The notes beneath the pieces are model-generated. The model made no database searches and had not been told where the DNA came from. It saw only the letters and a program-made list of their open reading frames with translations. The position numbers were made by a program, and so were the translations under genes. DNA of 37,340 bases, taken from contig JAUWTD010000007.1 in the NCBI GenBank assembly GCA_030609775.1, positions 1 to 37,340 of the forward strand. The letters are read 5' to 3'. Shown here piece after piece: positions 16,186 through 34,385 of this stretch (position 1 is the first letter of the stretch; each line of letters begins with the position of its first letter). The stretch comes from Candidatus Altarchaeota archaeon (GTDB lineage: Archaea; Altiarchaeota; Altiarchaeia; IMC4; QMZM01).

Positions 16186-17561
16186 TATTCTGATCTCCTC
16201 CGATAGGATGTCCCAACCTCCGAGGTTTCACGGGACACAATCTCATAAAGAACCGCCTTCTTGCCTTCTTTTTTCCGCAGCACCCTGCCAAGCCGCTGAA
16301 TAAACTCCCGCCGACTCCCGGTTCCGCTCAAGATCACTCCAACGTTGGCTTCGGGAACATCAACTCCCTCATCCAAAACCTTTGAGGATACAATCCTAGG
16401 ATACACGCCCAACCGAAACTTATCTAAAACATCCAAACGCTCCTCTCTTCGAGTGGTATGGATAATTGAAGGAATCAAAAACCTATGAGATATCAATCTA
16501 ACCAAGTCATTATGTTCAGTGAATATAATCACCCGATCACTTGAATGCTTAAGCAGGATAGAGGATAAGGCATCTAATTTAGAGGAGGAATTGAATGCAA
16601 TCACCCTAGCCTTATGCCTTGAAAGCAGCGCTTTTCTCGCCTCCTTATCCCGCCCGGTCCGCATCACAAAAAAACTAAAATCCCTGGGTGTCCTCAAAGA
16701 GATATTATGGGTTTTCAGGTAACTTCGATAATGATTATAGTGCAAGTCATATTCCTCCCGCTCCTTATCAGATAATTGAGTATACACCCGCTCAGTCGAA
16801 TACTCTGAAAGATGTTTTCCAGTCAGCTTAGATACACTCTCCTCAAACACAACCCCGCCAACCAACCTAGGCAACTCCCCATGTAAATTATCTGCCCGCT
16901 CATAGGTGGCAGTCAAACCCAACCGATAAGGCGCACAAAACATCTCAGCAATATGCCTGTAACCCTCAGAGGGAAGATGATGGACCTCATCAAAAACCAA
17001 TAAAAGAAACCGGTTCCCCAGCTCTTCTGCCCGCAGATACGCTGAATCATAGGTTGCAACAGTTAAGGATCTTACAGTCTTTTCTTCGCCTGAATATTCC
17101 CCTATTTCGATACCGAATGATTCACCTAACACCGTCTTCCACTGCCTCACCAAATCCAGTGTAGGGACAACAATCAGGGAAGGGGCATTTAATTTAGAGA
17201 TAATGTGTGCTGCAACCAAGGTCTTACCTGAACCAGTCGGCAGCACAACAACACCTTTTTTGGATTTCATCCACGCATCAACCGCAGATTGCTGATAGTC
17301 TCTTAGCTTATGCCCGACAAATTCAAATCTGGGACAGGGTACAAGATCCAATACATTATCTTCAACATCTAATCCCTCCCGCACAACAAAACCCGATGAC
17401 GCAGATCCCGCACCTGAACCCTCATTTAAATAATCCAGGATATCAGAGTAATACAAGCCAAGAGCCCTATAACCCTTAGATCGCTCATCCCACCTACTAT
17501 TCGGAACATGAGTCCCCTTAACCAATACGGAACCCTTGTGATAAGACAAATGAACTACCAT
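16185..17561 (-). CDS. xpb: XPB/Rad25-like SF2 helicase
   Basis: LRDYQQSAVDAWMKSKKGVVVLPTGSGKT, DEVHH, LTATYERAD, QRLGRVLR. The track start at 17681 adds an unlikely leader; ATG at 17559-17561 (MVVHLSYHKGSV) is preferred. Confidence 0.93.
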   Translation of the reverse strand: MVVHLSYHKGSVLVKGTHVPNSRWDERSKGYRALGLYYSDILDYLNEGSGAGSASSGFVVREGLDVEDNVLDLVPCPRFEFVGHKLRDYQQSAVDAWMKSKKGVVVLPTGSGKTLVAAHIISKLNAPSLIVVPTLDLVRQWKTVLGESFGIEIGEYSGEEKTVRSLTVATYDSAYLRAEELGNRFLLLVFDEVHHLPSEGYRHIAEMFCAPYRLGLTATYERADNLHGELPRLVGGVVFEESVSKLTGKHLSEYSTERVYTQLSDKEREEYDLHYNHYRSYLKTHNISLRTPRDFSFFVMRTGRDKEARKALLSRHKARVIAFNSSSKLDALSSILLKHSSDRVIIFTEHNDLVRLISHRFLIPSIIHTTRREERLDVLDKFRLGVYPRIVSSKVLDEGVDVPEANVGVILSGTGSRREFIQRLGRVLRKKEGKKAVLYEIVSRETSEVGTSYRRRSE

Positions 17562-17673
17562 AGATAGGATATATAGGGGATTAGGATAGATTAGATGATT
17601 TTTTAAGGAAAGAAAGAGGAGGGAGTGAGAGAGAAAGAAAAAGAACGCGGAAGGAGATTGTTCCAATATTTTG

Positions 17674-17685
17674 TTAGGCACTACA
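17674..17685 (+). repeat. Dispersed motif TTAGGCACTACA, copy A
   Basis: Exact 12-mer in the XPB/TraB divergent intergenic region. Confidence 0.9.
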
Positions 17686-17904
17686 AAAGACCGGGTGTGG
17701 CAAACACATCATCTTTTTTTTAGGTCTCTACTTAATATTGAGAGATATCTGTCAAACTTCCGGAAGGATCCCTGAATCTAATTCGGGAGGGTTTTCCAGT
17801 TTTACCCTCCCCAATGATTTGTTTCATCACCCAAAAAAACGTTCACATAGTACCAGTATATTTCTCTTAATATAATTAGATTAGGCATCCAATATAATTA
17901 GAAT

Positions 17905-19071
17905 ATGTTAAATGAGGTAACGAAGATTAGTTTAGAGGGGAAAGAGGTCCTGCTCGTTGGAACCGCGCATGTTTCCCAGGAGAGTGTGGACCTGGTAAGA
18001 GACGTCATCGAAAAAGAATCCCCTGACGTAGTCGCAGTAGAGTTAGACAAACAACGCTATGAGGCTCTGGTGAACAAAAAAAAATGGGATGAAACAGAGA
18101 TCCATAAAGTCATAAAAGAAAAAAAAACATATCTATTCCTCCTGCAGCTACTTCTTACAAACTTCCAGCGAAAGATAGGAGACGAGTTAGGGGTCAGACC
18201 GGGCTCAGAGATGGTTAAGGCAATAGAGATAACAAAAGAAAAAAACATCAAAATCGCGCTCGTAGACCGAGACATCCGGGTGACGCTTAAAAGGGCGTTT
18301 AATAGGATGGGATTAAAGGAAAAATTCAGCATATTCTACGGCTTCTTTGCAGGAATATTCGAGAAAGAAGAGATAAATGAAGACCTCATCGAAAAACTCA
18401 AAGACAAAGATGTCATGACTGAGATGATGGAGGAACTCTCAAGGGAGATACCTTCCATAAAAGAGGTCCTGATAGATGAAAGAGACCGATACATAGCACA
18501 AAAGATACATGAGATGGAGGACAAAAAGATTGTGGCAGTTGTCGGAGCAGGACACGTTAAAGGCATAAAAGAGATCCTAGAATCCGGAACCCGGGAAGAT
18601 ACAAAAAAACTCGAAGAACTTACTGAGACCCGGAGCATGCTAAAGTATATTGGATACGGTGTGCCGTTAATCTTTATCGCGCTCGTCTGCTGGGGATTCT
18701 ATACCAACGGCACAGACCTTACAGTAGAGATGCTATACATGTGGTTTATGATAAACGGCGTCCTCTCAGCAGCCGGTGTCGCCTTGGCCTTCGGCCACCC
18801 CGCATCAATACTTGCCGCCCTCTTTGCAGCGCCCTTCACCTCGCTGAATCCAGCTATTGCCGCCGGCTGGGTTGCAGGCCTCACCGAGGCCTGGGTCAGG
18901 AAACCGAAGGTAAAAGACTTCGACAACCTATTTAAACTAGATAATATGAGAGACTACTGGAAAAACGGAGTCACACGAATACTCTTAGTGATAATATTTG
19001 CAAACATCGGAAGCTCAATCGGAACATTCATAGCCTTACCCTACATCGCAACACTACTACAAAATGGATAA
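17905..19071 (+). CDS. TraB/PrgY-family membrane protein (long form)
   Basis: LLVGTAHVSQESVDLVRDVIEKESPDVVAVELDKQRYEAL, VRPGSEM..AIE, VVGAGHVKGI; C-terminal TM region. Confidence 0.92.
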   Translation: MLNEVTKISLEGKEVLLVGTAHVSQESVDLVRDVIEKESPDVVAVELDKQRYEALVNKKKWDETEIHKVIKEKKTYLFLLQLLLTNFQRKIGDELGVRPGSEMVKAIEITKEKNIKIALVDRDIRVTLKRAFNRMGLKEKFSIFYGFFAGIFEKEEINEDLIEKLKDKDVMTEMMEELSREIPSIKEVLIDERDRYIAQKIHEMEDKKIVAVVGAGHVKGIKEILESGTREDTKKLEELTETRSMLKYIGYGVPLIFIALVCWGFYTNGTDLTVEMLYMWFMINGVLSAAGVALAFGHPASILAALFAAPFTSLNPAIAAGWVAGLTEAWVRKPKVKDFDNLFKLDNMRDYWKNGVTRILLVIIFANIGSSIGTFIALPYIATLLQNG

Positions 19072-19915
19072 GGAACCTAGACTATTAGGGGTAATCGGAC
19101 ACCCAATACAACATTCATTGTCCCCGGATATGCATAATGCAGTATTCAAAAAACTGAATCTAAACTGCAGTTATTCCGCATACGATGTCACCTCTGAAAA
19201 ACTTGAATCATTCCTTGAAGAATGCATAGAAAAAAGATTCGGGGGACTGAATGTGACAACACCCCACAAAGTCGATGTAATCAAGTATTTGGACTCAGTT
19301 GACGAAAACGCACGACGGATTAATGCAGTGAATACAATAAAATTTAACGAAAAAATAAAGATAGGATACAACACAGACGGCGTAGGCTGCATAAACGCAC
19401 TCAGAGAAGAAGGGGAAAAAATCAAGGGAAAAAGAATACTTGTCCTAGGAGCAGGAGGCGCCGCAAGAGCAATCACCTTCCAGTGCGCATTAGAGGGCGC
19501 GGAAATCATTATCTCAAACCGGACACGAGAAAACGCAATAAACCTATCAAAAGAGATAAGAGAAAAGTTGGGTAGGAGGGTGCTTGTTGTGAACTACTCA
19601 GAGAAATCGATAAAAGACATCATGCCTCAAACAGATATATTGATAAACACAACAACCGTTGGAATGCATCCAAAAGCAAACAGAAGCCCGATAACAGCAG
19701 ACACCCTGAGAAAAGAGGTGACAGTAATGGATATCGTATATAATCCGGTTGAAACGTTGCTACTGAAAACCGCCAAAAGAAAAGGATGCAAAACAATAGA
19801 CGGAGTAGGCATGCTAGCACACCAGGGAGCAGAATCCCTTAAAATCTGGCTCAACCTTAAGGCACCTGTAGATGAGATGAAGAAAACAGTACTTGAAAAA
19901 CTTAAGGCACGATGA
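19064..19915 (+). CDS. aroE: Shikimate dehydrogenase
   Basis: GVIGHPIQHSLSPDMHN, GLNVTTPHK, NTDGVG, LGAGGAARAI, DIVYNPVET. Confidence 0.97.
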   Translation: MDKEPRLLGVIGHPIQHSLSPDMHNAVFKKLNLNCSYSAYDVTSEKLESFLEECIEKRFGGLNVTTPHKVDVIKYLDSVDENARRINAVNTIKFNEKIKIGYNTDGVGCINALREEGEKIKGKRILVLGAGGAARAITFQCALEGAEIIISNRTRENAINLSKEIREKLGRRVLVVNYSEKSIKDIMPQTDILINTTTVGMHPKANRSPITADTLRKEVTVMDIVYNPVETLLLKTAKRKGCKTIDGVGMLAHQGAESLKIWLNLKAPVDEMKKTVLEKLKAR

Positions 19916-20355
19916 AGGTTTCAGGAAAAGAACTGATTGGATACGTTGAGGGTATAGTCTATGAAAAAACTCAGGTAAAAGAGTATGGGATAGATTTGAC
20001 GATTAAATGCGTTTATGAGATAAAGGATGCGGGTTCACTGGACTTCGGCGGAAGCGAATATAGGATGGCCGGGAAGAATAATATAGAGCCAGTGAAAAAA
20101 ATAGGAGACAAATACGGTTGGTGGCATCTAGAACATAAGACATATCTTGTAAGCCTGAACGAAACTGTGAAACCTGGATTCATCTATTATATATCGCCGC
20201 ACACCAGGCTCCTCAACACCGGAGCAAACCACCCCACTGTAATGACAACCGAGTGGGGATCAGAGGAGGTGCTGCCACTCCAGGTAAGTGAACAGGGACT
20301 TAATCTGAAGGAGAATGCAAGAATCTCAAGGCTTTTCGCATTAAGGATACAATAA
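19912..20355 (+). CDS. dCTP deaminase/dUTPase family protein
   Basis: 147 aa; dUTPase-like pattern with YLVSLNETVKPGFIYYISPHTRLLNTGA; 4-nt overlap with aroE. Confidence 0.7.
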   Translation: MKVSGKELIGYVEGIVYEKTQVKEYGIDLTIKCVYEIKDAGSLDFGGSEYRMAGKNNIEPVKKIGDKYGWWHLEHKTYLVSLNETVKPGFIYYISPHTRLLNTGANHPTVMTTEWGSEEVLPLQVSEQGLNLKENARISRLFALRIQ

Positions 20356-20359
20356 AGGA

Positions 20360-21040
20360 TTATTTCTGCGGACCCGATGTGTTCATCTTTAAGAATTTGT
20401 AGGCTAATGCTGCTGCACCGAATCCATTATCTATGTTCACTACTGCCACGGGGGTGCAGGAATTCAGCATGGTGAATAAGGCCGCTTTCCCTCCTTCCCC
20501 TGTCCCATAGCCTACAGAGGTTGGGACCGCAATCACTGGCGCAGACACTAGACCTGCGACCACCGAAGGCAGTGCACCTTCCATTCCTGCGACCACGATA
20601 AGTATTTGCGCATCCTTAAGTTGCTCAAGGGCACCGAAAACCCTGTGAAGCCCGGCGATGCCGACATCATATACCTTGATTATTTCGCAACCAAATTCCT
20701 CCGCGACCGCGGCCGCCTCCTCGGCGACGCCGACATCCGAGGTCCCGGCAGTTAACACCCCGACCCGTCCAACCGAAACGGATACAAAGTCTTTCTTTTT
20801 TATGGATAAAACCCTGCCTTTACGGTTATGAACTACCAAAAATTTGTTAATATCTATTGACGATAACACCTTTTCGGTTTTTTCAGGGGATATGCGAGTG
20901 ATTATAGCCCGGCCCAAATCCTTTAAGAAGGTGTCTACTATGGCTACTAATTCTTCTGCGGATTTCCCTTCACCAAAGACGACTTCAGGAATGCCGCACC
21001 TCTCCTCACGGGATTTATCATGGTTCAAATACATTCTCAA
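20360..21040 (-). CDS. larB: LarB-like (PurE/NCAIR mutase-related) protein
   Basis: R.ERCGIPEVVFGEGKSAEELVAI; SVGRVGVLTAGTSDVGVAEEAAAVAEEFGCEI; GMEGALPSVVAGLVSAPVIAVPTSVGYG. Confidence 0.9.
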   Translation of the reverse strand: MRMYLNHDKSREERCGIPEVVFGEGKSAEELVAIVDTFLKDLGRAIITRISPEKTEKVLSSIDINKFLVVHNRKGRVLSIKKKDFVSVSVGRVGVLTAGTSDVGVAEEAAAVAEEFGCEIIKVYDVGIAGLHRVFGALEQLKDAQILIVVAGMEGALPSVVAGLVSAPVIAVPTSVGYGTGEGGKAALFTMLNSCTPVAVVNIDNGFGAAALAYKFLKMNTSGPQK

Positions 21041-21714
21041 TCAAGTATCTTGAGTATCTGGGTTAATTCATCCAATGTAAGCTGCCCTGGAGCGGATTCC
21101 CCTCCTTTTTCTATTGGGGCATATGTGAGATAGGAGCCAAGCAACGGACCGATTACCCTTGATATCTTGCCGAATTTACCCATTGATATAGCGATCAGGG
21201 GTATGTTAAATGATGCGTCATCGTTTTGGTCTACGAGAACCTGCATCAGGTTTAAGACATCGGTGTAGTTGTTTGCCATGAATGCAATCTTTGCTATGTC
21301 TGCATTAGCTTCAAGCTCCTTGTTTAGTATTCTGATAATTTCCTGCCTTGGAGGGGTTAAATCAAAGTTGTGATAAGAAAGAATCACCTTAACACCTGCA
21401 TCTTTTGCTGCGGCCACCAAGGAATCCCGCAAGATTTTATCGGTATTCAACTCTATTGTAATAAAATCCGCGAAATCAAGGGAGCTACGAAGAATTTTCA
21501 TTCTATCCGGTTCAGAACCCTTAAAGTTCCCGCCTTCCCAAGAAGGCATACATGCGACGACCTTTTTTTTCTCTATTTTCTCCAAATGCCCCAGATCAGA
21601 GAAACCAGATAAGAAATCAAGCCGCAGCTCAACGGTTTCACACTCTACCCTGTTTGCTTTATCTACCATAGAATCTATCCCAGATTCAACGAGGGGAACA
21701 CATATCAAACACAT
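21037..21714 (-). CDS. aroD: Type I 3-dehydroquinate dehydratase
   Basis: ETVELRLDFL, VILSYHNFDLTP, AKIAFMAN, PLIAISMGKFGKISRV. Confidence 0.94.
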   Translation of the reverse strand: MCLICVPLVESGIDSMVDKANRVECETVELRLDFLSGFSDLGHLEKIEKKKVVACMPSWEGGNFKGSEPDRMKILRSSLDFADFITIELNTDKILRDSLVAAAKDAGVKVILSYHNFDLTPPRQEIIRILNKELEANADIAKIAFMANNYTDVLNLMQVLVDQNDDASFNIPLIAISMGKFGKISRVIGPLLGSYLTYAPIEKGGESAPGQLTLDELTQILKILD

Positions 21715-21768
21715 AGTATATTATAAAAAACCACATCATTTATATTTATAGATAATAATTTATTACAT

Positions 21769-22524
21769 ATGACAAGAATAATTGGGGTAATGTCAGGAAA
21801 GGGTGGTGTGGGAAAAACCACACTAGTTTCGAATCTAGGGGTTTCCCTATCACAAGGAGGGAAAAAAGTAGGGATCATAGACGCGAACCTGTCAGGGGCA
21901 AACCTAGGGCTTCATTTCGGCCTAATATCTTATCCAACCTCTGTCCACGATGTGATGAGAGGGAATACTAGCTTAACCGATGCTATGTACAAGCATCCGT
22001 CAGGGATAGATATAGTTCCTGCGTCCTTATCCATTGAGGACCTTGATGTGGAGCCAAGCAACATAAGACAACAGATCATGGAGTCTATGAGCGACAAGGA
22101 CTATGTTCTGATAGACTGCGCAACCGGATTAGACCGGGAAACTATGAAAGCAATGGAAATGGTTGACGACGTTATATTAGTCACACACCCCGAGCTTCCG
22201 ACAATCTCCGATGCCCTTAGAACAAAAACGATTGCAAAAAAATATGACAAAAATGTTCTCGGAATCGTCCTCAACAGGGTAAGCAAAAGCGACGAGTTAA
22301 AAAAAGAAAACATTTCAGCATTCTTTGATCTTCCAGTGATTGGAGTAATCCCAGAAGACCATTCCATAAGAAGATCCATCGAAGCAAAAAATCCGATTAC
22401 ACTCGAACATCCGAAACACCAGATAAGCCAAGAAATCCATTGTGTTGCAAACTATATTATGGGCAAAAAATGCGCACAAAAAAGAAGCTTCATGGATAAA
22501 ATCAAATCATTCTTCAGAAAGTAA
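21769..22524 (+). CDS. MinD/ParA-family ATPase with a possible C-terminal amphipathic membrane-targeting helix
   Basis: MSGKGGVGKTTLVSNLG deviant Walker A; C-terminus RSFMDKIKSFFRK. Confidence 0.92.
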   Translation: MTRIIGVMSGKGGVGKTTLVSNLGVSLSQGGKKVGIIDANLSGANLGLHFGLISYPTSVHDVMRGNTSLTDAMYKHPSGIDIVPASLSIEDLDVEPSNIRQQIMESMSDKDYVLIDCATGLDRETMKAMEMVDDVILVTHPELPTISDALRTKTIAKKYDKNVLGIVLNRVSKSDELKKENISAFFDLPVIGVIPEDHSIRRSIEAKNPITLEHPKHQISQEIHCVANYIMGKKCAQKRSFMDKIKSFFRK

Positions 22525-22528
22525 GGGT

Positions 22529-22933
22529 ATGCAGGTAGTGAATAAAACAAAAAACGAAGTAATCAGTAGCAACATAGAAACAGCGTGCTCTATCTTATCA
22601 AGGATACGGGGTTTGATGCTCTCCAAACCCAAGGACCTGATTCTTGTCTCCCCCCGGGAGGATATAACCTCATCTGCAATACATATGATGTTTATGTTAT
22701 ATCCTATAGATGTTATCTGGGTGAGTTCAGAACAGATGGTTGTAGACTTAAAAAAGAAGATTCCTGCATATAATCCCCTGAAACCAAGAACATGGAAAAC
22801 CTACAAACCCAAGACGGCTGCAAAATACGTAATTGAATTAGGGCGAGGAGATTTAGGCAACACAGAAATCGGAGACAAAATAAGGTTTCTACATGCCGGC
22901 TCCGAATCCGACACGCTTCATCATCTGCTTTAG
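22529..22933 (+). CDS. DUF192 family protein
   Basis: MQVVNKTKNEVISSNIETACSILSRIRGLMLSK..IHMMFMLYPIDVIWVSSEQMVVDLKKKIPAYNPLKP. ATG at 22529 preferred over the track start 22442. Confidence 0.85.
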   Translation: MQVVNKTKNEVISSNIETACSILSRIRGLMLSKPKDLILVSPREDITSSAIHMMFMLYPIDVIWVSSEQMVVDLKKKIPAYNPLKPRTWKTYKPKTAAKYVIELGRGDLGNTEIGDKIRFLHAGSESDTLHHLL

Positions 22934-24208
22934 CTTCCGTTCATCGCCAAATGTTTTCATCATCTTCTTCATCTTTTTATAGTGGTTAAGAAGCTCCCTT
23001 ACCTCCTCTACCGACCTGCCTGAACCTACTGCTATCCTATCAATTCTCGACCTCTTAACTATTCCAGGGTCCTGCTTCTCTTCATAAGTCATAGAATCCA
23101 TTATAATCCGGAAGATTTGAAGCTTCTCCTCTTGCACATCCATCACATCCTTAGGTATCTTAGACCCGAATGGAAGCATATCCAAAAGTTTCGAAAGAGA
23201 ACCCATATTCTGCATCTGAGTTATCTGCTGATACAGGTCCTCAAGTGTGAACTTACCGGACATAAGACGCTTTGCAGCATCCTCATCAAACTCCACCTCC
23301 TGCGCCCGCTCCAACAACCCCTGAAGGTCGCCGAAACCTATCAGCCTAGAAACAAACCGCTCAGAATCAAATTCCTCAAAATCATCCAAACGCTCTCCAA
23401 CCCCTATAAAATACACGGGGGCCTTGATGGCCGCACACGCAGACAACGCCCCGCCACCCTTTGCTGAACCATCCAATTTAGTGAGGATCACCCCATCCAC
23501 GTTACATGCCTTCTTAAAAGCGGCTGCCTGCTCACCTGCACGCTGACCAATAGTGGAATCGAGTACTAGAAGGGTTTTTTCTGGTTTTATCTTGGCATAT
23601 ATCTTGTTTATGTCCCTCATCAGATCCTCATCAAGACTATGCCTTCCTTCAGAATCGATTATAGTCAGGCCTTCACCTTTGAAATTAGATAATCCCTCCT
23701 TTATGATCTTCAATGAATCCTTCTCCTGGGGGCGCCCATAGAGCGGGACATGGATCTCCTCAGAAAGCTGACTTAACTGATCATATGCTGCAGGACGAAA
23801 GGTATCCGCACATATAAGTTTCGGATGCATGCCCTTCTTTTTCAGGTATTTGGATAATTTCGCTGCAGTGGTTGTCTTACCTGAACCCTGCGTGCCCACT
23901 AAGAGAATCTTTTCACCGTCCTTTATCTGCAATCTCTCCCCGGTGCCGATAAGCTCCACCAATGCCTCATACGTAATCCGGATAAGATTCTCTCTCCTAT
24001 CAAGCACCCCGGGGGGTTTTTCGAGAAACCCGCGCTCCTCTATTTTCTTCGAAAGCTCAAATACGAGCTTTACATCAACATCGGCTGAAAGCAGCGTCTT
24101 TTGTATACCCTTCAAATACTCCTTGACTGTTTTTTTATCAAGTACAACCGCCTTCCGGAGGCTGAGAACAGTGTCCTGAAGACCGGATTTTAGCTTCTCA
24201 AAAACCAT
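22889..24208 (-). CDS. srp54: Signal recognition particle protein SRP54
   Basis: GTQGSGKTTTAAKLSKYL, ADTFRPAAYDQL, LTKLDGSAKGGGALS; M-domain FTLEDLYQQITQMQNMGSLSKLLDMLP. Start at MVFEKL (24208) preferred over 24262. Confidence 0.97.
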   Translation of the reverse strand: MVFEKLKSGLQDTVLSLRKAVVLDKKTVKEYLKGIQKTLLSADVDVKLVFELSKKIEERGFLEKPPGVLDRRENLIRITYEALVELIGTGERLQIKDGEKILLVGTQGSGKTTTAAKLSKYLKKKGMHPKLICADTFRPAAYDQLSQLSEEIHVPLYGRPQEKDSLKIIKEGLSNFKGEGLTIIDSEGRHSLDEDLMRDINKIYAKIKPEKTLLVLDSTIGQRAGEQAAAFKKACNVDGVILTKLDGSAKGGGALSACAAIKAPVYFIGVGERLDDFEEFDSERFVSRLIGFGDLQGLLERAQEVEFDEDAAKRLMSGKFTLEDLYQQITQMQNMGSLSKLLDMLPFGSKIPKDVMDVQEEKLQIFRIIMDSMTYEEKQDPGIVKRSRIDRIAVGSGRSVEEVRELLNHYKKMKKMMKTFGDERKLKQMMKRVGFGAGM

Positions 24209-24212
24209 TTTA

Positions 24213-24866
24213 TCAACAGATGATGTGTCTCCATAATTCATCCTTGCCATGGAGACCTTCAAGCTTTACTTCCTCATTAATGAGCAAGGTAGGGGTTAGA
24301 GTTATATTATACTGCTTTTTTATTATATCGATGGTTGTTATGTTAAGGTCGACTGGCAGAGGAATCAACATCAGATTCGGCCCACAGGACTCCTTAACCT
24401 CCTGCAGGACCTTGCTTTGAACATGTTCAGGCATTGTGGTATTATAGTGGGAGTAGAAGTACACAAGATTTGTGTAATTCGCCTTACAGGTCCTTTTTAA
24501 TTCTATGCTGTTAAACCAAAACTGCAGCTTCAATAGGATATACCGTCTTTTATCAGTTACAAGAGACGGAGCTAGCTTATTTATCTTCTCATACCGTTCT
24601 ATGCGCACCCCTTCACTATAGACCTTCTCTGAAAACACTAGATTCTCTTGTATTGCAGGTTCACAGAAGTTAGATGAATTCCTAAATACCTGATAATATA
24701 GAGCCTGCAATCTAGCATCATTTGAACTTATCTCCATTCCCTTATACTCTGCCCGAATTTCCTCTACCCTCCCGTTATCAATCCAGAAACCAACCAACAT
24801 TCCAAGTACGAAGATAACAAGAGTCAATACAAACGCCTTCCAGAATACATCAGACTGAACTACCAT
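24213..24866 (-). CDS. Membrane-anchored protein with thioredoxin-like C-terminus
   Basis: N-terminal TM; ITTIDIIKKQYNITLTPTLLINEEVKLEGLHGKDEL resembles the cis-Pro half of a thioredoxin fold; no CxxC. Confidence 0.55.
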   Translation of the reverse strand: MVVQSDVFWKAFVLTLVIFVLGMLVGFWIDNGRVEEIRAEYKGMEISSNDARLQALYYQVFRNSSNFCEPAIQENLVFSEKVYSEGVRIERYEKINKLAPSLVTDKRRYILLKLQFWFNSIELKRTCKANYTNLVYFYSHYNTTMPEHVQSKVLQEVKESCGPNLMLIPLPVDLNITTIDIIKKQYNITLTPTLLINEEVKLEGLHGKDELWRHIIC

Positions 24867-26080
24867 TTTTGTTTTTTATAAACCAAGAGCCTCCAGAAAG
24901 ACTGGGCAAGCAATATCGGAAACATGAAAAGATACACAGATAGATATATTAGCATCTCAAAGAAGGTTCTTATGTTAAGTATCTTTTTATCCATCGCTCT
25001 TAAGCCAACCACAAGATAAACCAAGGATAAAAAAAACACAGTGAACCCGAGAACTGTGAAAACATTAGGATACAGGTTTATGGAAAAAGATTTGAAAGGA
25101 TTCATGCCCACCATCTGGGCATAATGCAAAAATTCTATGAGGTTGGACGCCCTGAGGGTTATAAGATAAAGAAACAAACCTAAACCAATGAGGCTTATGA
25201 AAATCGACAAAGAAAAGTAGGGTATAATGAACATACCAAATATGCCGTGCCTTCTCTTAAAACATGCACTCTTGTATGCGTTCGCTGTCTGGATGCCGCC
25301 GATATCCCACCTGAGGCGCTGACTCCACCACTTCCGAAGAGATGAAGGCACGGTTGTGTAGACTCTAGCAGGTAAAACCATCCGTATCCGGTAGCCTTCC
25401 TTTTGCAGCCTCCATGCAATCTCAATATCCTCGGTTAAAACACTTCCATCAAAGCCGCCCACCCCCTCAAGAACCTCCTTACGATATAAACTCAGAGGCC
25501 CGGGCGTTACGTATACACTATTCAGATAATCAAGAAGCTTACGATTCCATGCGATAAGGAGATACTCCATCTCCTGAAGATTCTCCAAAAAACCTTTAGG
25601 ATTTTTCACAAAAATTGATGAAGTAACCGCCGCAACCCGTGAATCATCGAAATAGGGTGCCATCTTCAATAAGGCATCCTTCATTGGATAAGAATCAGCA
25701 TCAATGCAGCCTACAATGTCGCCTTTGGCCAGTTTCACCCCCCGGTTGAGGGCCGCGGCCTTGCCTGAATTATCCTGCGAAACCACCAAAACACCCTCAG
25801 CTCTTGCCTTCTCGACGGTCTTATCAGTAGAACCATCATCCACCACAATGAGTTCAAATAAGTCTTCGGGATAAGATAGTCTCTTAACTGCGTGAATCGT
25901 TTCGGTTATATGGTCCTCCTCGTTATATGCCGGAATAATTATAGTTAAAGAGGGAAGATGCGTCATCTGAACATCATCAAACATCTGCTTGCGATTCTTT
26001 AGGAAGAGTATCATAAACAAAGAGACCATATACAATGAAATAAAGGTAAACCCAAGAAACATGTAATCGATGATATACAT
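24860..26080 (-). CDS. Family 2 glycosyltransferase, membrane-associated
   Basis: LTIIIPAYNEEDHITETIHAVKRL, VVDDGSTDKT, GCIDADSY, LTEDIEIAWRLQKEGY, QRLRWDIGG; C-terminal TMs. Confidence 0.95.
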   Translation of the reverse strand: MYIIDYMFLGFTFISLYMVSLFMILFLKNRKQMFDDVQMTHLPSLTIIIPAYNEEDHITETIHAVKRLSYPEDLFELIVVDDGSTDKTVEKARAEGVLVVSQDNSGKAAALNRGVKLAKGDIVGCIDADSYPMKDALLKMAPYFDDSRVAAVTSSIFVKNPKGFLENLQEMEYLLIAWNRKLLDYLNSVYVTPGPLSLYRKEVLEGVGGFDGSVLTEDIEIAWRLQKEGYRIRMVLPARVYTTVPSSLRKWWSQRLRWDIGGIQTANAYKSACFKRRHGIFGMFIIPYFSLSIFISLIGLGLFLYLITLRASNLIEFLHYAQMVGMNPFKSFSINLYPNVFTVLGFTVFFLSLVYLVVGLRAMDKKILNIRTFFEMLIYLSVYLFMFPILLAQSFWRLLVYKKQKW

Positions 26081-26147
26081 TTTAAAATATGTCTACATGA
26101 TAAATATTAATTCATAAAAAGTTTCGCCTATGCTGTAATGATATCAA

Positions 26148-26180
26148 AATAATATATGAATAATATATGAATAATATATG
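26148..26180. repeat. 3 x 11-bp tandem repeat AATAATATATG
   Basis: Three exact consecutive copies in the divergent intergenic region. Confidence 0.97.
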
Positions 26181-26286
26181 AATACATCCATATAACTATT
26201 AGGTCAGCCCTCGTTCTCTCACACTTGAGAGATGAGAGAAGGCATATTCTGACTAAAAATATAGTGGGAGGAAGAAAAGGAAAGAA

Positions 26287-26892
26287 ATGTTTAATGACAG
26301 GATATTTATTCTGGAGACGAAAAGACAACTAGTGCATTTATGCCTTGGGTTAGGCATAAGCTTTATGTTATACTATCTGATGCCGCTTGTAGGATATGCT
26401 GTCTTGATTCCATTGATTATAGCATTGGTTCTGTTATATGCTGTACCTAGAAAATGGTCAGATATAAAGATAACAAACCATTTCCTCCTACATTTTGAAA
26501 GAGACAAAGATAAACACACCTTCCCCTTCAAAGGACCGATATATTATGGTTTGGGAATAATACCCCCCATACTTTTCCTGCCTCTGGAATACGCCTGCGC
26601 AGTAATCGCCGTCCTCAGTGTGGGGGATTCTGTGTCAACATTGTTAGGTAAATTCTTTGGCCGGATAAGGATAGGGGAAAAAAGCCTGGAAGGCTTCCTT
26701 GCATTCTTCATATTCGGCTCACTTTCAGTGCTATTATTCGTGCAAAACTATCCTCTTGCATTAGTCTTTGGTTTCGTCGGAGCCATCCTTGAATTCAACG
26801 CAATAATAGACGACAACCTCCTGATTCCAGGAGGACTCACCGTCTTATACTATATCATAAACATAACCACACCAAATCTAGTAATTGTATAA
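26287..26892 (+). CDS. DGK1/SEC59-like lipid kinase or phosphatidate cytidylyltransferase family membrane protein
   Basis: LSVGDSVSTLLGKFFGRIRIGEKSLEGFLAFFIFGSL; GAILEFNAIIDDNLLIP. Confidence 0.75.
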   Translation: MFNDRIFILETKRQLVHLCLGLGISFMLYYLMPLVGYAVLIPLIIALVLLYAVPRKWSDIKITNHFLLHFERDKDKHTFPFKGPIYYGLGIIPPILFLPLEYACAVIAVLSVGDSVSTLLGKFFGRIRIGEKSLEGFLAFFIFGSLSVLLFVQNYPLALVFGFVGAILEFNAIIDDNLLIPGGLTVLYYIINITTPNLVIV

Positions 26893-26935
26893 TAAATTCA
26901 TGAAAACATAAAATAAGTAATATATAGGTACAATA

Positions 26936-27010
26936 GGGCCTGTAGCCTAGCCTGGATAGGGCACCGGACTTCTAATCCGGAGATCATGGGTTCGAATCCC
27001 ATCAGGTCCG
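26936..27010 (+). tRNA. tRNA-Arg (anticodon UCU)
   Basis: Acceptor GGGCCTG/CAGGTCC; anticodon arm CCGGA-CTTCTAA-TCCGG; T arm ATGGG-TTCGAAT-CCCAT; TATA-like stretch upstream. Confidence 0.97.
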
Positions 27011-27063
27011 TATGATTTTTTTTTCTGCTAAATAGGGTTTTGATGTATCCGGATTCATGTAAG

Positions 27064-27075
27064 TTAGGCACTACA
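27064..27075 (+). repeat. Dispersed motif TTAGGCACTACA, copy B
   Basis: Exact 12-mer downstream of tRNA-Arg. Confidence 0.9.
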
Positions 27076-27171
27076 CCAAGATAAATGCGTGTAACCCCTT
27101 AAAAAAAACGAAAAATATTTTAACCCGAAACAACAAAAGATAAGTATAAATAAAACTATTTTATAGATAAA

Positions 27172-27417
27172 ATGGAAGAGATAGATAAAGAGAGGATAGG
27201 TATACGAATAGATGTACTATACGACATCATCAATGACCTGAACAATGATGAAGAACTGCAGAAACTATTTGGCATCCCTGTTTCTAAGTCGCTTTTTGCA
27301 ATCGCAGAAGAAAACGACTTCCGGATCGAAGAGGGAGGCGCAATCGACCTACACGAGGATGACGCCGACAGATTCCTGCAGATCCTTGACAGGATCATAA
27401 AGGACAACACAGTCTAA
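27172..27417 (+). CDS. Conserved-looking small acidic protein, unknown function
   Basis: 81-aa ORF directly followed by the DUF167 gene in the same orientation. Confidence 0.6.
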   Translation: MEEIDKERIGIRIDVLYDIINDLNNDEELQKLFGIPVSKSLFAIAEENDFRIEEGGAIDLHEDDADRFLQILDRIIKDNTV

Positions 27418-27423
27418 AAAAAA

Positions 27424-27723
27424 ATGCCTAAATGCATCCGTCCATGCAAAGAAGGCACATTAATAGATATCTATGTTACACCAGGATCAAAGAAAGAAAA
27501 CATCACATATGATAATCTAACAGGCAGAATCAAAGTCAGGATACATGAACCTGCACGGAAAGGAAAAGCAAATAATTCCATTAGTAAAACATTCAAAGAC
27601 ATCATGGGAGAATGCATAATCATATCAGGAAACCGATCTAAGAAAAAAACAATACTTGTAACGGGAAAATCCCCCGACGATGTCAAAGAAATGCTTAAAG
27701 AACAAGGTGTTTTTATTGGTTGA
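27424..27723 (+). CDS. DUF167/YggU family protein
   Basis: IDIYVTPGSKKENITYDNLTGRIKVRIHEPARKGKANNSISKTF. Confidence 0.88.
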   Translation: MPKCIRPCKEGTLIDIYVTPGSKKENITYDNLTGRIKVRIHEPARKGKANNSISKTFKDIMGECIIISGNRSKKKTILVTGKSPDDVKEMLKEQGVFIG

Positions 27724-27760
27724 ATCTATAATGATAAGAATAATAAACATATTAAACATA

Positions 27761-27901
27761 TAATTCGGATTATATCAAAAAAAAATCATTACGCCAAATT
27801 AATTTAGGAGGGCGTCACCAATCATGATAACCGAGTAGATTCCAATCAAGGATTAGATAGAACCTAAAGTTTCTTTTTGGTAAAAGATATAATCTGAATT
27901 A
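27761..27901 (+). ncRNA. Candidate structured RNA or dnaG leader closed by a 16-bp helix
   Basis: TAATTCGGATTATATC (27761-27776) pairs with GATATAATCTGAATTA (27886-27901), 15 Watson-Crick pairs plus one G.U. Internal helices include CGCC/GGCG and an ACCTAAAG/TTTTTGGT-type hairpin. Confidence 0.35.
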
Positions 27902-27935
27902 ATAGTGTTTATATTTGTTTTATGAGGTGATTTAA

Positions 27936-29102
27936 ATGGCAAAAGCGCCAGCAGACACTATAAAATACAACATTTATGCAGATATCATAATTGATGGAGT
28001 AGTTGAAAAACCAGACGTCGTCGGAGCAATCTTCGGACAATCCGAAGGACTGCTTGGAGAAGACTTAGAGTTAAGAGAATTACAGAAAACAGGTAGAATA
28101 GGGCGAATAGAAGTTGACATAAAAACAAATGTCGGCAAATCCAGTGGATCAGTAACAGTACCCTCAAGCCTTGACATGATCGAGACCTCAATTATTGCAG
28201 CAGCAATAGAGACCGTTGACCGGGTAGGACCCTGCAACGCAAAGATTAATGTTAAGGATATTGAAGATGCACGGTCATCGAAGAGAAAACAGATCATAGA
28301 CCGGGCAAAGATACTTCTAAAGAAACTGGTTGAGGAAGAAATTCCAGAGAGCGACCAACTCACAGAGGAAGTGAAGAAATCAGTCCAATTAAGTGAAATC
28401 ACAGACTATAACGGCTTACCGGCTGGTCCGGGGATAGATGTGGCAGAAAGTGTGATCCTGGTAGAGGGAAGAGCAGATGTTTTGTCACTGCTTAAATGCG
28501 GCATAAAAAATGTCGTCGCAGTTGGAGGGACAAACATACCAAAACAAGTGATAGACCTATGCAAACAGAAAACCACCATCACATTCTTAGATGGGGATAG
28601 AGGAGGAGACATCATCCTAAAAGAGTTGACCCAGGTATCCGATGTCGACTTCGTTGCAAGAGCACCGAAAGGCAAAGAGGTAGAGGAATTAGGCAAAAAA
28701 GAGATAATAATGGCCCTACGCCGAAAGATCCCTCTAAGTCAAGTCAGAGGATACGAAGACAAGAAAGAAGGCTCCAGGGAATACGTGGAAAAAAAAGAAC
28801 AGCCCAAACCAGAGATTAAAGGAGAAGACAACAAAAAGCTTTTGGATCTTCTAAAAGCAGTGAAAGGCAAACTCACCGCAAGGCTCTACGACAAAAACCT
28901 TGAGATGATAACAGAGATCGAAATCAAAGACTTAGTAGACAGCCTAAAAGACGTCCAACCCTATTGCATTGTCTTTGATGGAATAGTGACACAGAGACTG
29001 GTTGATTCCGCTGTAGAAAGCAGAGTAGAGTATGTTGTGGGGGTTAATAAATCCACGATCTCAAACACGAAAAAGGTGAAGATTCTAACCGAAAAAAACT
29101 AG
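27936..29102 (+). CDS. dnaG: Archaeal DnaG (Toprim) protein
   Basis: VILVEGRADVLSLLKCGIKNVVAVGGTNIP..TITFLDGDRGGDIILKEL Toprim motifs; archaeal DnaG N-terminus. Confidence 0.96.
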   Translation: MAKAPADTIKYNIYADIIIDGVVEKPDVVGAIFGQSEGLLGEDLELRELQKTGRIGRIEVDIKTNVGKSSGSVTVPSSLDMIETSIIAAAIETVDRVGPCNAKINVKDIEDARSSKRKQIIDRAKILLKKLVEEEIPESDQLTEEVKKSVQLSEITDYNGLPAGPGIDVAESVILVEGRADVLSLLKCGIKNVVAVGGTNIPKQVIDLCKQKTTITFLDGDRGGDIILKELTQVSDVDFVARAPKGKEVEELGKKEIIMALRRKIPLSQVRGYEDKKEGSREYVEKKEQPKPEIKGEDNKKLLDLLKAVKGKLTARLYDKNLEMITEIEIKDLVDSLKDVQPYCIVFDGIVTQRLVDSAVESRVEYVVGVNKSTISNTKKVKILTEKN

Positions 29103-29154
29103 TTTCGCCTTTTTTTCTTTTTCTTATTTCTTCTTATTTTACATTATATTTAAT

Positions 29155-30639
29155 ATGGCTTCTCCAGTGGACGGAATACATTTAGGAGATATAGAGTCCA
29201 CAAAAGATGTTAAGATACCAAAAGAGCCAATAGATAGGATTATCGGACAAGACCACGCCATAAACAAGGTAAAGAGCGCAATAAAACAGCGCAGAAATCT
29301 TCTTCTCGTCGGCCCGCCAGGCATCGGAAAAAGTATGGTGGCCCAGGCCCTTGCGTTAAATATGTCTAAACCCACACAAGAAATACGCGTCCTGCATAAT
29401 CCAGAGAACCCAGAAAAACCTATTCTTGAGATGATAAACAAGGAAGAACTCAACAAAGAACTGAAAACCCACTCCATACGCGGTTTTATTGTTTCAGTAA
29501 GAGAGGTTCCGTCATTCGTTGCAGAACAATTAGGGTGCAGATGCATCAGTTGCGGAGAAATTAGTGACATCAGTGAAGACATATGCCTAAAATGCGGCAC
29601 AAACAAATACAGCAAGGTTTCATGGGGTAAAAGAAACACGCCGTTTGGTGACATAATAACTGAGATTTTTGAGATAGGCACAATAAGACCCCAAAGAGAA
29701 GTGAGGACAACAAAAATAGGAAGAGATGGCAGAGAGACAATTGTTGTATACCAGTACGTAGGGGAAGGACAGATACGTGTCATGGATCAATCAGATTTTG
29801 GAGACATTAAAGAAACAGAAGATAAAAAACAGATGAAGATTATTATTCCAATAGATAGATTTCCTTTCGTGCATGCAACAGGCGCATCTGAAACAGAGCT
29901 TCTAGGGGATGTGAGACATGATCCATACGGTAGTCACCCAGAGATAGGGACCCCTGCATATAAACGGGTTATTCCCGGAGCAATACATGAAGCACATGAG
30001 GGGGTTTTATTCATTGACGAACTCCCTCACATGGAGTACCTGCAAAGCTACATACTTACTGCGATGCAGGAAAAAAAGTTTTCAATCACCGGCAGAAACC
30101 CGCATTCAGCAGGCGCGTCTGTTAAAGTGAACGACGTCCCTTGCGATTTCATTTTTGTAGGAGCATGCAATATAGAAGACATCGGAAAAATCCTGCCTCC
30201 ATTGAGATCAAGGATCCTTGGTAACGGATATGAGATTCTTCTTGAAACAGATATGGAAGATAATGAAAAAAATAGATGCAGACTCCTTCAATTTATTGCC
30301 CAAGAAATAGAAAGAGACGGCAGGATACCTCATGCAAGCAGGGAGGGTGCAGGCATGATTATTAAGGAGGCTATGAGAAGAGCCTTTGACTTGGATGGGA
30401 AAAGAAACCGCCTCACCCTAAGATTAAGGGATCTTGGAGGAGTACTCAGGCTTGCAGGAGATTTAGCGATTATTGATGCGTCTGAATTAATAGAAGCAGA
30501 CCACGTGAAGAACAGCATTAAAGACTCCAAACCAATAGAACATCAAATAAGGGAGAGATATGGTTCCATGTGGGAGGGCGCCCAAAGAGATCGGAGTGTT
30601 CAATTCAAGCAGAATAAGGGAGATAAAGGATACCTATAA
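29155..30639 (+). CDS. LonB-like AAA+ ATPase with Zn ribbon and no S16 protease domain
   Basis: Walker A GPPGIGKS; LonB-type ATGASETELLGDVRHDPYG and TPAYKRVIPGAIHEAHEGVLFIDELPHM; Zn ribbon CRCISCGEISDISEDICLKCGTNK; the ORF ends before any protease domain. Confidence 0.85.
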   Translation: MASPVDGIHLGDIESTKDVKIPKEPIDRIIGQDHAINKVKSAIKQRRNLLLVGPPGIGKSMVAQALALNMSKPTQEIRVLHNPENPEKPILEMINKEELNKELKTHSIRGFIVSVREVPSFVAEQLGCRCISCGEISDISEDICLKCGTNKYSKVSWGKRNTPFGDIITEIFEIGTIRPQREVRTTKIGRDGRETIVVYQYVGEGQIRVMDQSDFGDIKETEDKKQMKIIIPIDRFPFVHATGASETELLGDVRHDPYGSHPEIGTPAYKRVIPGAIHEAHEGVLFIDELPHMEYLQSYILTAMQEKKFSITGRNPHSAGASVKVNDVPCDFIFVGACNIEDIGKILPPLRSRILGNGYEILLETDMEDNEKNRCRLLQFIAQEIERDGRIPHASREGAGMIIKEAMRRAFDLDGKRNRLTLRLRDLGGVLRLAGDLAIIDASELIEADHVKNSIKDSKPIEHQIRERYGSMWEGAQRDRSVQFKQNKGDKGYL

Positions 30640-30698
30640 AAAATAAATAATACTCAGGGGGGGGTCATTTCCTGTATTTTCTTGGTTGAAGTGGATTA

Positions 30699-30817
30699 CA
30701 TAAGAACAGTAATTAGGCACTACAACCATAAGAACAGTAATTAGGCACTACAACCATAAGAACAGTAATTAGGCACTACAACCATAAGAACAGTAATTAG
30801 GCACTACAACCATAAGA
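30699..30817. repeat. 4 perfect 28-bp tandem repeats (CATAAGAACAGTAATTAGGCACTACAAC) plus a 7-bp partial
   Basis: Exact units at 30699-30726, 30727-30754, 30755-30782, 30783-30810; partial cataaga at 30811-30817. Confidence 0.99.
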
Positions 30818-30823
30818 TTGCTT

Positions 30824-32029
30824 CTATTTCTGTTCTTTCTGTTTTTGTTGTTTTAATTCCTTTTCAGAGGCACCTAGGCAATACAACAAGCCCTTTAAAT
30901 TATTTTTTGTTATGCTGCCATCTGCGACATTCTTAAGAACATCCTTTGCATTAAAAGCAATGCCAAGACCTGCATTCTCCAACATAATCCGGTCATTTGC
31001 ACCGTCGCCGACAGCAACAATATCCTTTCTTTGCAACCCTTCCTTATCAGCCAACTCCTCCATGATCGCAGCCTTCCTCTCAGAGTCAATTATATCTCCC
31101 TTGAGTTCACCTGTAACCTTCCCGTCTTGAATAACCAGTTCATTCCCGAAGGCATAATCAAAACCCAGCCGCTCCTTTAAAGCATCCGTGAAATACGTAA
31201 ACCCCCCACTTATAAGAGCAACCTTATAACCCATATTCTTCAATGCCGAAATAAGATCCTCAGTTCCAGGAGTTATCCTCAACTCATCAACCATCTCTTT
31301 TAAAACAGATTCAGGGAGACCCTTCAACATAGAAACCCTCTTTTTTAGGGATTCTTCAAAATCTATTTCACCCCGCATACCCTTTGCAGTTAGCTCAGAC
31401 ACCTGAGGCCCAATACCTGCTTTCTTTGCCATCTCATCAAGGATCTCTTCATCAATAATGGTTCCATCCATATCAAAAACAATAAGCATTTTCCTAAACA
31501 CTGAAGCCGATTTAGGCTGAACTATAACATCTATTCCCATCTGTTTACCTGCTTTACCCATAATATTCCTCAATTCATTTAATGCAATGGCTTTAGAGTC
31601 AACAAACAATTCCATTGCAAGAAGATCACCGCGGGCAATCATCTTTATCCTTTCAATGTTTAGGTTTATATTAGATAATGCCATAGATATACTTGCTACA
31701 ATTCCAGGCATATCTTTTCCAAATATTATTATCCTTTGAATATTTCTTTCTCCAGTGTTTTTTCTGCCGTCATACTCAGAAAAAGGGATTAATCTAACAT
31801 CAATAGCCTGTTTTATGGAATAATTATGTAGTTTATTTTGTATGTCCTTAATAGGGGATATTGATTTACTGATGTCTACTAGCATAAACATTGAGAATAA
31901 ACCATGTATGACACTTTGCTCTATGTCAACAATGTTAACATTATCCTTGGCTAATTGTTTCGTGATTCCTGAAACAAGACCTTCCTTATCCTTCCCTAAT
32001 ACTGTAACAACAAACAAATGGTCGTTCAT
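30824..32029 (-). CDS. serB: Phosphoserine phosphatase with N-terminal ACT domains
   Basis: FDMDGTIIDEE, ALISGGFTYFTDAL, AVGDGANDRIMLENAGLGIAFNAK; two N-terminal ACT-like segments. Confidence 0.95.
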   Translation of the reverse strand: MNDHLFVVTVLGKDKEGLVSGITKQLAKDNVNIVDIEQSVIHGLFSMFMLVDISKSISPIKDIQNKLHNYSIKQAIDVRLIPFSEYDGRKNTGERNIQRIIIFGKDMPGIVASISMALSNINLNIERIKMIARGDLLAMELFVDSKAIALNELRNIMGKAGKQMGIDVIVQPKSASVFRKMLIVFDMDGTIIDEEILDEMAKKAGIGPQVSELTAKGMRGEIDFEESLKKRVSMLKGLPESVLKEMVDELRITPGTEDLISALKNMGYKVALISGGFTYFTDALKERLGFDYAFGNELVIQDGKVTGELKGDIIDSERKAAIMEELADKEGLQRKDIVAVGDGANDRIMLENAGLGIAFNAKDVLKNVADGSITKNNLKGLLYCLGASEKELKQQKQKEQK

Positions 32030-32048
32030 TCTTAGGAAGAAAAATGAT

Positions 32049-32333
32049 TTATTCTATATTAATCTTCCCAAATTTTCCTGACCCTATTTGAAGTTCGTCT
32101 CTGTACTCCTTTGTCCAGCCGTTTTCTATTTTTATCTTGATTCCAGGACTAATTAAATCGATTTCCTCATTCCATAACGTTAATTTAACTTCTCCGGTTT
32201 CATCTTTAACTATAGCGTTTGCTACTTTGCCACTTCCTCTAAAGCTGTTAAACTCCCGTGGCTCATCGATACTAACAACCTCTAATTCTATACTGTCTAT
32301 GGATGTGTTTGGTTTCAAATCTTTTACTTGCAT
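32049..32333 (-). CDS. OB-fold (RPA/SOSS-B-like) nucleic-acid-binding protein
   Basis: ANAIVKDETGEVKLTLWNEEIDLISPGIKIKIENGWTKEYRDELQIGSGKFGKI is typical of an archaeal OB-fold SSB-like protein. Confidence 0.88.
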   Translation of the reverse strand: MQVKDLKPNTSIDSIELEVVSIDEPREFNSFRGSGKVANAIVKDETGEVKLTLWNEEIDLISPGIKIKIENGWTKEYRDELQIGSGKFGKINIE

Positions 32334-32412
32334 TATAATTCACCTTTAATTTAGATTTAAGTATTTATTACTGAAGTATAAAAACCAGGCCAGAAATTAT
32401 TTATTCTATTAA

Positions 32413-32424
32413 TGTAGTGCCTAA
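32413..32424 (-). repeat. Dispersed motif TTAGGCACTACA, copy on the minus strand
   Basis: tgtagtgcctaa on the plus strand, directly adjacent to the nadX stop codon. Confidence 0.9.
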
Positions 32425-33204
32425 TTATGTCCCGATTTGTACAACCTCAAATATCTCTTTAAGCATGGCTATGGCAGAAAGTGCAGCAATCCAACTCGTT
32501 TTAGGATTTTGAGTTGAGGGTATATTTTTTGTTACTGTGGTAAATTCACCAAAATCCCCTTTCACATATATTTCATGAATATTTCTTTTGATGTTTGGAT
32601 CGGCTATTATCCTTAAATCAGTTCTATCCATACCAATACCTGCAATACCTACTGTTGCTGCAACATTTACATTTCTTGGAAATTTCATAACACCTTCACT
32701 AGCCGGACCTTCAAAAACCAAGGTCTCCCTATCAACATCAACCCCTAGATTAATAGGATTCTTTCTTGTTGTTATCTCTACTGATTCTATTGAAGCAAGC
32801 TTTGCAGCATTAATACCATCTATCCCAATAATTCCTCCTGAGGGAACATATATCTTCACATTATTCTTCCTGGCTGCTTTTTTCATGTTCCTGAATAATT
32901 CATTATCCGCTAAAGCCCCTACACTTAAAACCATTAGATGCTTCCCGGCATTTAAAATATTGATACCATATTCTCTAACCGCCTCCTGTGAAGCAGTCTC
33001 AACAACTAAGTCTACACCTTCCATTAATTCCTCTATACTATCTGCCACCTGAAAATCTATATTCACGTATTTTCGAAAATTCTCTGCGGTTTTTCTGTTT
33101 TCATCGAAAACCTTAGATAGCTTACAGTGAATTACGCCCCTGTAAATGGCATTAGCTATAAACCCGCCGATGTTTCCACAACCAAGAATAGCAATATTTG
33201 TCAT
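32425..33204 (-). CDS. nadX: L-aspartate dehydrogenase
   Basis: ILGCGNIGGFIANAI, VPSGGIIGIDGINAAKL, NVNVAATVGIAGIGMDRTDLRIIADP. Confidence 0.92.
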   Translation of the reverse strand: MTNIAILGCGNIGGFIANAIYRGVIHCKLSKVFDENRKTAENFRKYVNIDFQVADSIEELMEGVDLVVETASQEAVREYGINILNAGKHLMVLSVGALADNELFRNMKKAARKNNVKIYVPSGGIIGIDGINAAKLASIESVEITTRKNPINLGVDVDRETLVFEGPASEGVMKFPRNVNVAATVGIAGIGMDRTDLRIIADPNIKRNIHEIYVKGDFGEFTTVTKNIPSTQNPKTSWIAALSAIAMLKEIFEVVQIGT

Positions 33205-34004: not shown

Positions 34005-34030
34005 ATTTTATCATATTTATATCTATCTTA

Positions 34031-34099
34031 CATAATTCTATTATAACGGTTAACATAATTCTATTATAACGGTTAACATAATTCTATTATAACGGTTAA
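34031..34099 (+). repeat. 3 x 23-bp tandem repeat CATAATTCTATTATAACGGTTAA abutting a start codon, likely promoter
   Basis: Three exact copies at 34031-34053, 34054-34076, 34077-34099; ATG at 34101. Each unit contains an AT-rich TATA-like stretch. Confidence 0.97.
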
Positions 34100-34100
34100 A

Positions 34101-34385
34101 ATGAGCAAACGACTATCAGAGATCTATGGGATGGACCTCTTCACAGAAAAGGCAGAATACGTTGGAAAAGTCGGAGACATCATACTCAACATTGATCAAG
34201 GAGAAATCATGCAGTTGAGTCTGACGCCACTGAAACCAGAAGACGGAGACATACGCAGGATCCTGCAGGAGGAAACCATATCATATGAGGATGTCTTAAA
34301 GGTCGGAGACATTATACTATGCAAAAAAAATCCACGCAGGGAAGGAAGAGCCCGGAGCGAAAGCGCCCCAAGAACAACCCTCTAA
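34101..34385 (+). CDS. PRC-barrel domain protein
   Basis: LSEIYGMDLFTEKAEYVGKVGDIILNIDQGEIMQLSLTPL; ISYEDVLKVGDIILCK. Confidence 0.82.
   Translation: MSKRLSEIYGMDLFTEKAEYVGKVGDIILNIDQGEIMQLSLTPLKPEDGDIRRILQEETISYEDVLKVGDIILCKKNPRREGRARSESAPRTTL

Follow-up and report, generated by a model that had tools for sequence, protein, structure and literature searches.

Within the window, by which we mean the whole analysed stretch of 37,340 nt, a LonB-like gene, a serB-like gene and a nadX-like gene follow one another, and the 12-mer TTAGGCACTACA lies beside them and at two places further upstream (Table 1). The earlier note had described seven exact copies at four loci, and every position and strand was reproduced in our count. 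When up to two mismatches were allowed, the window contained ten matches, a number attained in none of 100 dinucleotide shuffles. The first copy overlaps only a doubtful GTG extension of the ORF at 16185-17681, and the same-genus genome G001 has two copies of the motif in the region corresponding to the tRNA-Arg locus. The window also contains other tandem repeats. Three perfect 23-bp units (ACATAATTCTATTATAACGGTTA, 34030-34099), unrelated to the 12-mer, end just before the ATG of a 94-aa ORF (34101-34385), and degenerate A-rich repeats occupy positions 14340-14574 at the 3' end of the ORF at 13511-14578.

Table 1 Position and context of the motif copies and of the neighbouring genes in the window
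Feature	Position	Strand	Context
Exact TTAGGCACTACA	17674..17685	+	between a minus-strand gene and a plus-strand gene starting at 17905
Exact motif	27064..27075	+	53 nt downstream of tRNA-Arg(tct), 26936-27010
LonB-like gene	29155..30639	+	
28-bp tandem array (CATAAGAACAGTAATTAGGCACTACAAC, 4.2 perfect units)	30699..30817	+	between the LonB-like gene and serB, which are convergent
Exact motif, first in the array	30713..30724	+	
Exact motif, second in the array	30741..30752	+	
Exact motif, third in the array	30769..30780	+	
Exact motif, fourth in the array	30797..30808	+	
serB-like gene (ACT domains and HAD phosphatase)	30824..32029	-	
Exact motif	32413..32424	-	immediately adjoins the nadX stop codon
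nadX-like gene	32425..33204	-	

An abundant and strict 12-mer

The source genome (1.36 Mb on 85 contigs, 74% complete) contains 26 exact copies of TTAGGCACTACA, 10 on the plus strand and 16 on the minus strand, compared to about 0.3 expected. This is far above random expectation, and the proposal of a genome-wide repeat is well supported. The reversed word, used as a control, had no exact copy in the genome; allowing one mismatch added four words for TTAGGCACTACA and five for the control. The statement that all copies are intergenic holds for the window and fails for the genome, where about five copies outside the window sit within ORFs.

In 674 kb of the source genome, we counted 13 exact copies, no one-mismatch word and 39 two-mismatch words. 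Markov simulations on the same 674 kb gave 0.15, 2.35 and 43, respectively, and 300 permuted words had a mean of 0.07 copies with a maximum of 2. Since 13 exact copies are accompanied by no one-mismatch word, we conclude that the motif is strict, i.e. either exact or absent. The flanks of 233 compared sites have in common only a preference for A/T at position -2 and an avoidance of C at -1. With regard to a possible structured RNA around the motif, flank composition showed no conservation. TTAGGC is an Illumina index sequence; an index or adapter artefact was rejected, because independent MAG projects show the sites at orthologous positions. The idea of an integron attC site (GTTRRRY) was dropped, as G precedes TTAGGCACTACA in just 45% of the sites. 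A search of the open-access literature for the 12-mer and its complement returned no relevant paper, and topic searches likewise found nothing on the motif.

Distribution and conservation of the motif

The motif was found to recur in the family and the order of the source genome and in several other archaeal phyla. Each of the 13 genomes of the source family contains it (1-36 copies). It is also present in the sampled genomes of another family of the same order (f5, 1-27 copies), and family f7 has essentially no copies. Scanning the named genomes for tandem pairs gave 43 stretches spanning Altiarchaeota, Diapherotrites, Micrarchaeota, Woesearchaeota, Pacearchaeota and Nanoarchaeota; the others come from bins labelled Archaeoglobales (one), Euryarchaeota (one) and bacteria (two), and from two further archaea. 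One of the two "bacterial" contigs (L106, from AMOR_Bin_1762, labelled Patescibacteria) has archaeal genes for ribosomal proteins as well as scpA and is probably misbinned, and the other (L077) has a gene block common to viral contigs.

The arrangement of the sites depends on the lineage. A dispersed pattern, with sites both within and between genes and no preferred gene function, is seen in Altiarchaeota, Micrarchaeota (20 sites in one genome, distributed along a 452-kb contig), Diapherotrites (27-30 sites) and family f11 (7-14 sites). Woesearchaeota have one cluster of same-orientation copies per genome, and one-mismatch variants are concentrated there. Pacearchaeota have very few sites, the main one being a pair with a spacing of 21-23 bp that immediately precedes the TATA box of scpA, the gene for the SMC kleisin. 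In related Pacearchaeota genomes, the scpA promoter carries variants such as TTAGGTACTACA, and a direct-repeat pair of variant motifs with this spacing is present at this promoter in many of them (L205-L234, L276-L287). These sites lie upstream of the TATA box, and their orientation relative to the gene is opposite to that of the small-gene sites described below. Larger repeats containing the motif occur as well: ~200-bp hairpin-rich stretches with the motif at their boundaries in genome G002 (L065, L069, L074), and a 32-bp unit with the motif at many loci in the Diapherotrites genome G129 (L270, L272).

At the LonB-serB-nadX locus, the motif persists although the surrounding sequence diverges between genomes. 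The 3' end of LonB is followed by a motif in sense orientation in all four genomes in which that end was read, and the 3' end of nadX in seven out of eight, within 75 nt in six of them. Inward-pointing motifs flank serB in eight genomes from five genera. In G005, G007 and G011 (loci L061, L062 and L063), serB is inverted relative to its neighbours, and the flanking motifs keep their orientation.

One copy lies in the coding sequence of trpC. Read in frame, the motif encodes LGTT. Seven genomes from six genera were compared: the sequence is exactly TTA GGC ACT ACA in five, and a single synonymous base change separates each of the other two from it. Of the conserved columns in the trpC alignment, 53 are at least fourfold degenerate; only two of these have the same codon in every one of the seven genomes, and both fall within the motif. 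None of 200,000 random four-column sets matched the four motif columns. Because the motif codons hold the sole fully conserved degenerate positions across genera, we conclude that selection acts here on DNA, and at least some of the dispersed sites are under selection. The ratio of sense to antisense copies in ORFs was 16:8 in Altiarchaeota, 21:7 in Micrarchaeota and Diapherotrites and 4:8 in f11. A preference for one RNA strand is not needed to explain the first two ratios, since they are close to what open frames permit (two sense to one antisense).

A small protein family encoded next to the motif

The starting point for the search for a cognate protein was a short ORF that is framed by two copies of the motif and lies beside the f11 orc1 gene. 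The corresponding family has a size of about 45-100 aa and is recognizable by the short pattern M-x-F-[IV]-R...YYYLV...VRQKVLKYLG (consensus: M-x-F-[IV]-R-x-K-x-I-x-G-x-x-YYYLV-x-S-x-R-x-x-x-x-V-x-Q-K-V-L-x-YLG). A profile search of the fetched loci identified 17 distinct family genes and one weak Fic-like match. They are present in Altiarchaeota (including the source genome, on contig C14 at about 4301-4492, minus strand), f11, Woesearchaeota, Nanoarchaeia, Diapherotrites and Pacearchaeota. In some Pacearchaeota, the domain forms the N-terminus of glycyl-tRNA synthetase (GlyRS), and the motif is found at the promoter of this gene (L167, L350-L381; in G177:C3 near 179,200).

For 16 of the 17 genes, the nearest exact motif precedes the start by 1-183 nt (median about 25), although most loci had been chosen for holding the motif, so that this adjacency is partly selected and unbiased stretches are few. 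All 16 upstream motifs have one divergent orientation, in which the coding strand reads TGTAGTGCCTAA. For the remaining gene, a Micrarchaeota ORF, the nearest motif is 851 nt away. Most family genes show a TATA-like stretch, then the motif, often in several copies, and closely thereafter the ATG. Protein bound at this position would be expected to block initiation. Two cases are free of the selection. A 623-kb Pacearchaeota contig, read over its whole length, contains one domain copy only, the N-terminus of GlyRS, and here an exact motif precedes the ATG by 8 nt; the only other boxes on this contig are the scpA pair and one in-frame LGTT coding site. In about half of the source genome, the C14 gene is the sole strong match, and the motif precedes it by 23 nt. 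Among motif loci that are alone in their genome, not all gave a family gene, L102 being one example. A 43-aa ribbon-helix-helix protein beside a site in one Nanoarchaeia genome was also considered as the cognate factor and rejected, since it is not co-distributed with the motif.

Comparison of the small protein with Pfam, NCBIfam, PHROGs, PDB sequences, plasmids, phages and viral contigs gave nothing significant. The family is previously undescribed and absent from Pfam, NCBIfam and PHROGs. Its AlphaFold model has a beta-beta-beta-alpha order, i.e. a three-stranded sheet and a helix (pLDDT 84, pTM 0.54). A Foldseek search with this model against the PDB revealed no significant relative (best E 0.37), and the arm-binding domain of HPI integrase was at rank 24 with a TM of 0.17. 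AP2 domains and the arm-binding domains of Tn916- and lambda-type integrases are beta-beta-beta-alpha monomers that read about 11-12 bp. The small protein resembles them in the predicted order of its secondary structure elements and has no significant Foldseek match; the parallel is a lead only. Another weak similarity was detected to the N-terminal region of IS1634-family transposases: a degenerate IS1634-family remnant on contig C19 of the source genome (L401:3400-4400) contains a weak copy of the domain (E 7e-4), and another ORF of the remnant matches NF033559 at 6e-5. This suggests a possible origin of the small domain in the DNA-binding region of a transposase.

Possible functions of the motif

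We consider it fairly probable that TTAGGCACTACA is the strict asymmetric binding site of this small autoregulated DNA-binding protein family and that it has expanded genome-wide in some lineages. The protein-binding site suggested by the earlier note is well supported by the 26 copies, by the conservation at the DNA level and by a candidate cognate gene with the site in its own promoter; binding itself is what we infer from them. The small protein would bind TTAGGCACTACA sequence-specifically and would most likely repress its own promoter through TGTAGTGCCTAA between the TATA-like box and the ATG. Some lineages would have retained one or a few loci, namely Woesearchaeota and Pacearchaeota, the latter with the GlyRS fusion and the variant scpA site pairs. 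In Altiarchaeota, Micrarchaeota, Diapherotrites and f11, the exact site would have multiplied, reaching up to 36 places per genome, and there the protein is probably a global regulator, a boundary factor or a nucleoid factor. Simple operator logic leaves the dispersed sites uncovered, because in Altiarchaeota they are mostly away from promoters and some are inside genes. The array in the window has convergent 3' ends on both sides, so that operator logic on its own fails there as well; the array may instead serve as a boundary, a roadblock or a nucleoid site.

Such a system would share features with several known ones. An autoregulated repressor and its operator have the same layout, with the site between the TATA-like box and the ATG of the gene and often in several copies. 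Here, however, the site lacks symmetry and hardly varies across phyla, and several lineages have it far from promoters and inside genes. The matS/MatP and parS/ParB systems likewise have tens of strict sites within and between genes and a small dedicated reader (a putative one in our case), whereas TTAGGCACTACA is not palindromic and shows no evident clustering in one chromosomal domain, and the protein is unrelated.

The other explanations are less likely than a binding site. The best of them, in our view an unlikely one, is that a protein occupying the motif downstream of genes terminates or insulates transcription, acting as a roadblock or 3' boundary. In Altiarchaeota, intergenic sites follow a same-strand gene at a ratio of 21:8 (p=0.024, homologous loci collapsed), and in the genomes read, motifs at the 3' ends of LonB and nadX are always in sense. 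The bias is absent in the other lineages (18:12 in Micrarchaeota and Diapherotrites, 3:3 in f11, likewise with homologous loci collapsed). Furthermore, the flanks have no common hairpin or U-tract, and 28-46% of the site clusters are within ORFs, including the constrained site in the middle of trpC. With this share of clusters in ORFs and a bias confined to Altiarchaeota, a transcript 3'-end or processing signal is not supported as the general explanation. It is possible as a local consequence of binding, and a roadblock role can coexist with the binding-site explanation as an effect of the bound protein.

We regard it as improbable that the 12-mer is an uptake signal that tags the cell's own DNA for import and builds up through molecular drive, like those of Neisseriaceae (DUS) and Pasteurellaceae (USS). 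The resemblance consists in a short strict word present in both orientations at intergenic and permissive coding positions, here with sense matches in frames such as LGTT and a weak A/T extension at -2/-1. However, TTAGGCACTACA is far rarer, with 26 copies in 1.36 Mb and 1-36 in the family relatives, compared to hundreds to thousands, and the halo of one-mismatch words is absent in the 674 kb. ComEC (PF03772) was above the cut-off in none of 67 genomes tested, whereas the controls were positive. Import would also leave unexplained why Woesearchaeota and Pacearchaeota have a single promoter locus and why the position next to one gene family is fixed.

We judge it equally improbable that the motif is the terminal repeat or the scar of a mobile element with a relationship to IS1634-type transposases, which resemble the small protein at their N-terminus. 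The C19 remnant with its weak domain copy, the tandem duplications at sites and the G002 repeats bounded by the motif would fit such an element. However, the motif forms the ends of no element that we found: the +/- pairs about 1.6 kb apart enclose serB and no insertion sequence. The flanks are unrelated, decayed near-copies are absent in the 674 kb and the trpC copy is constrained at the codon level, which speaks against the mobile-element scar mentioned in the earlier note. In contrast to an IS1634-family transposase, the small protein has no catalytic domain (no NCBIfam or Pfam match at about 45-100 aa).

Least probable is a replication-origin or centromere-like site. Woesearchaeota genomes and virus-like contigs each have a single iteron-like cluster, and this is compatible with such a site, as are the f11 sites about 0.5 kb upstream of orc1 and the variant pairs at the scpA promoter. 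However, GC skew at three single-locus sites tracks the coding strand without an origin-like switch, 27 of 30 orc1 loci have no nearby site, the f11 sites there belong to the small gene, and the Micrarchaeota sites are spread along their contig.

Returning to the binding site, we can imagine, as a tentative and rather doubtful extension, that DPANN and altiarchaeal phyla share in the motif a strict 12-bp genome-addressing code, whose reader would be a new minimal beta-sheet protein family (fused to GlyRS in Pacearchaeota) and which would link autoregulation, scpA and boundary or nucleoid sites. Most DPANN archaea have not been cultivated, and only a small number of DNA-binding regulators are known from them. 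One short word and one tiny protein family that recur together across phyla offer a testable recognition code and a marker for genome comparison, and they may connect a tRNA synthetase and the control of a chromosome-segregation gene with sites across the genome.

The motif also occurs on virus-like contigs (L077, L119, L121, L123, L124). These contigs have a terminase-containing gene block in common, and each carries one motif cluster near structural genes, with 2-3 copies within a single intergenic region. DPANN archaea may be the hosts of these viruses.
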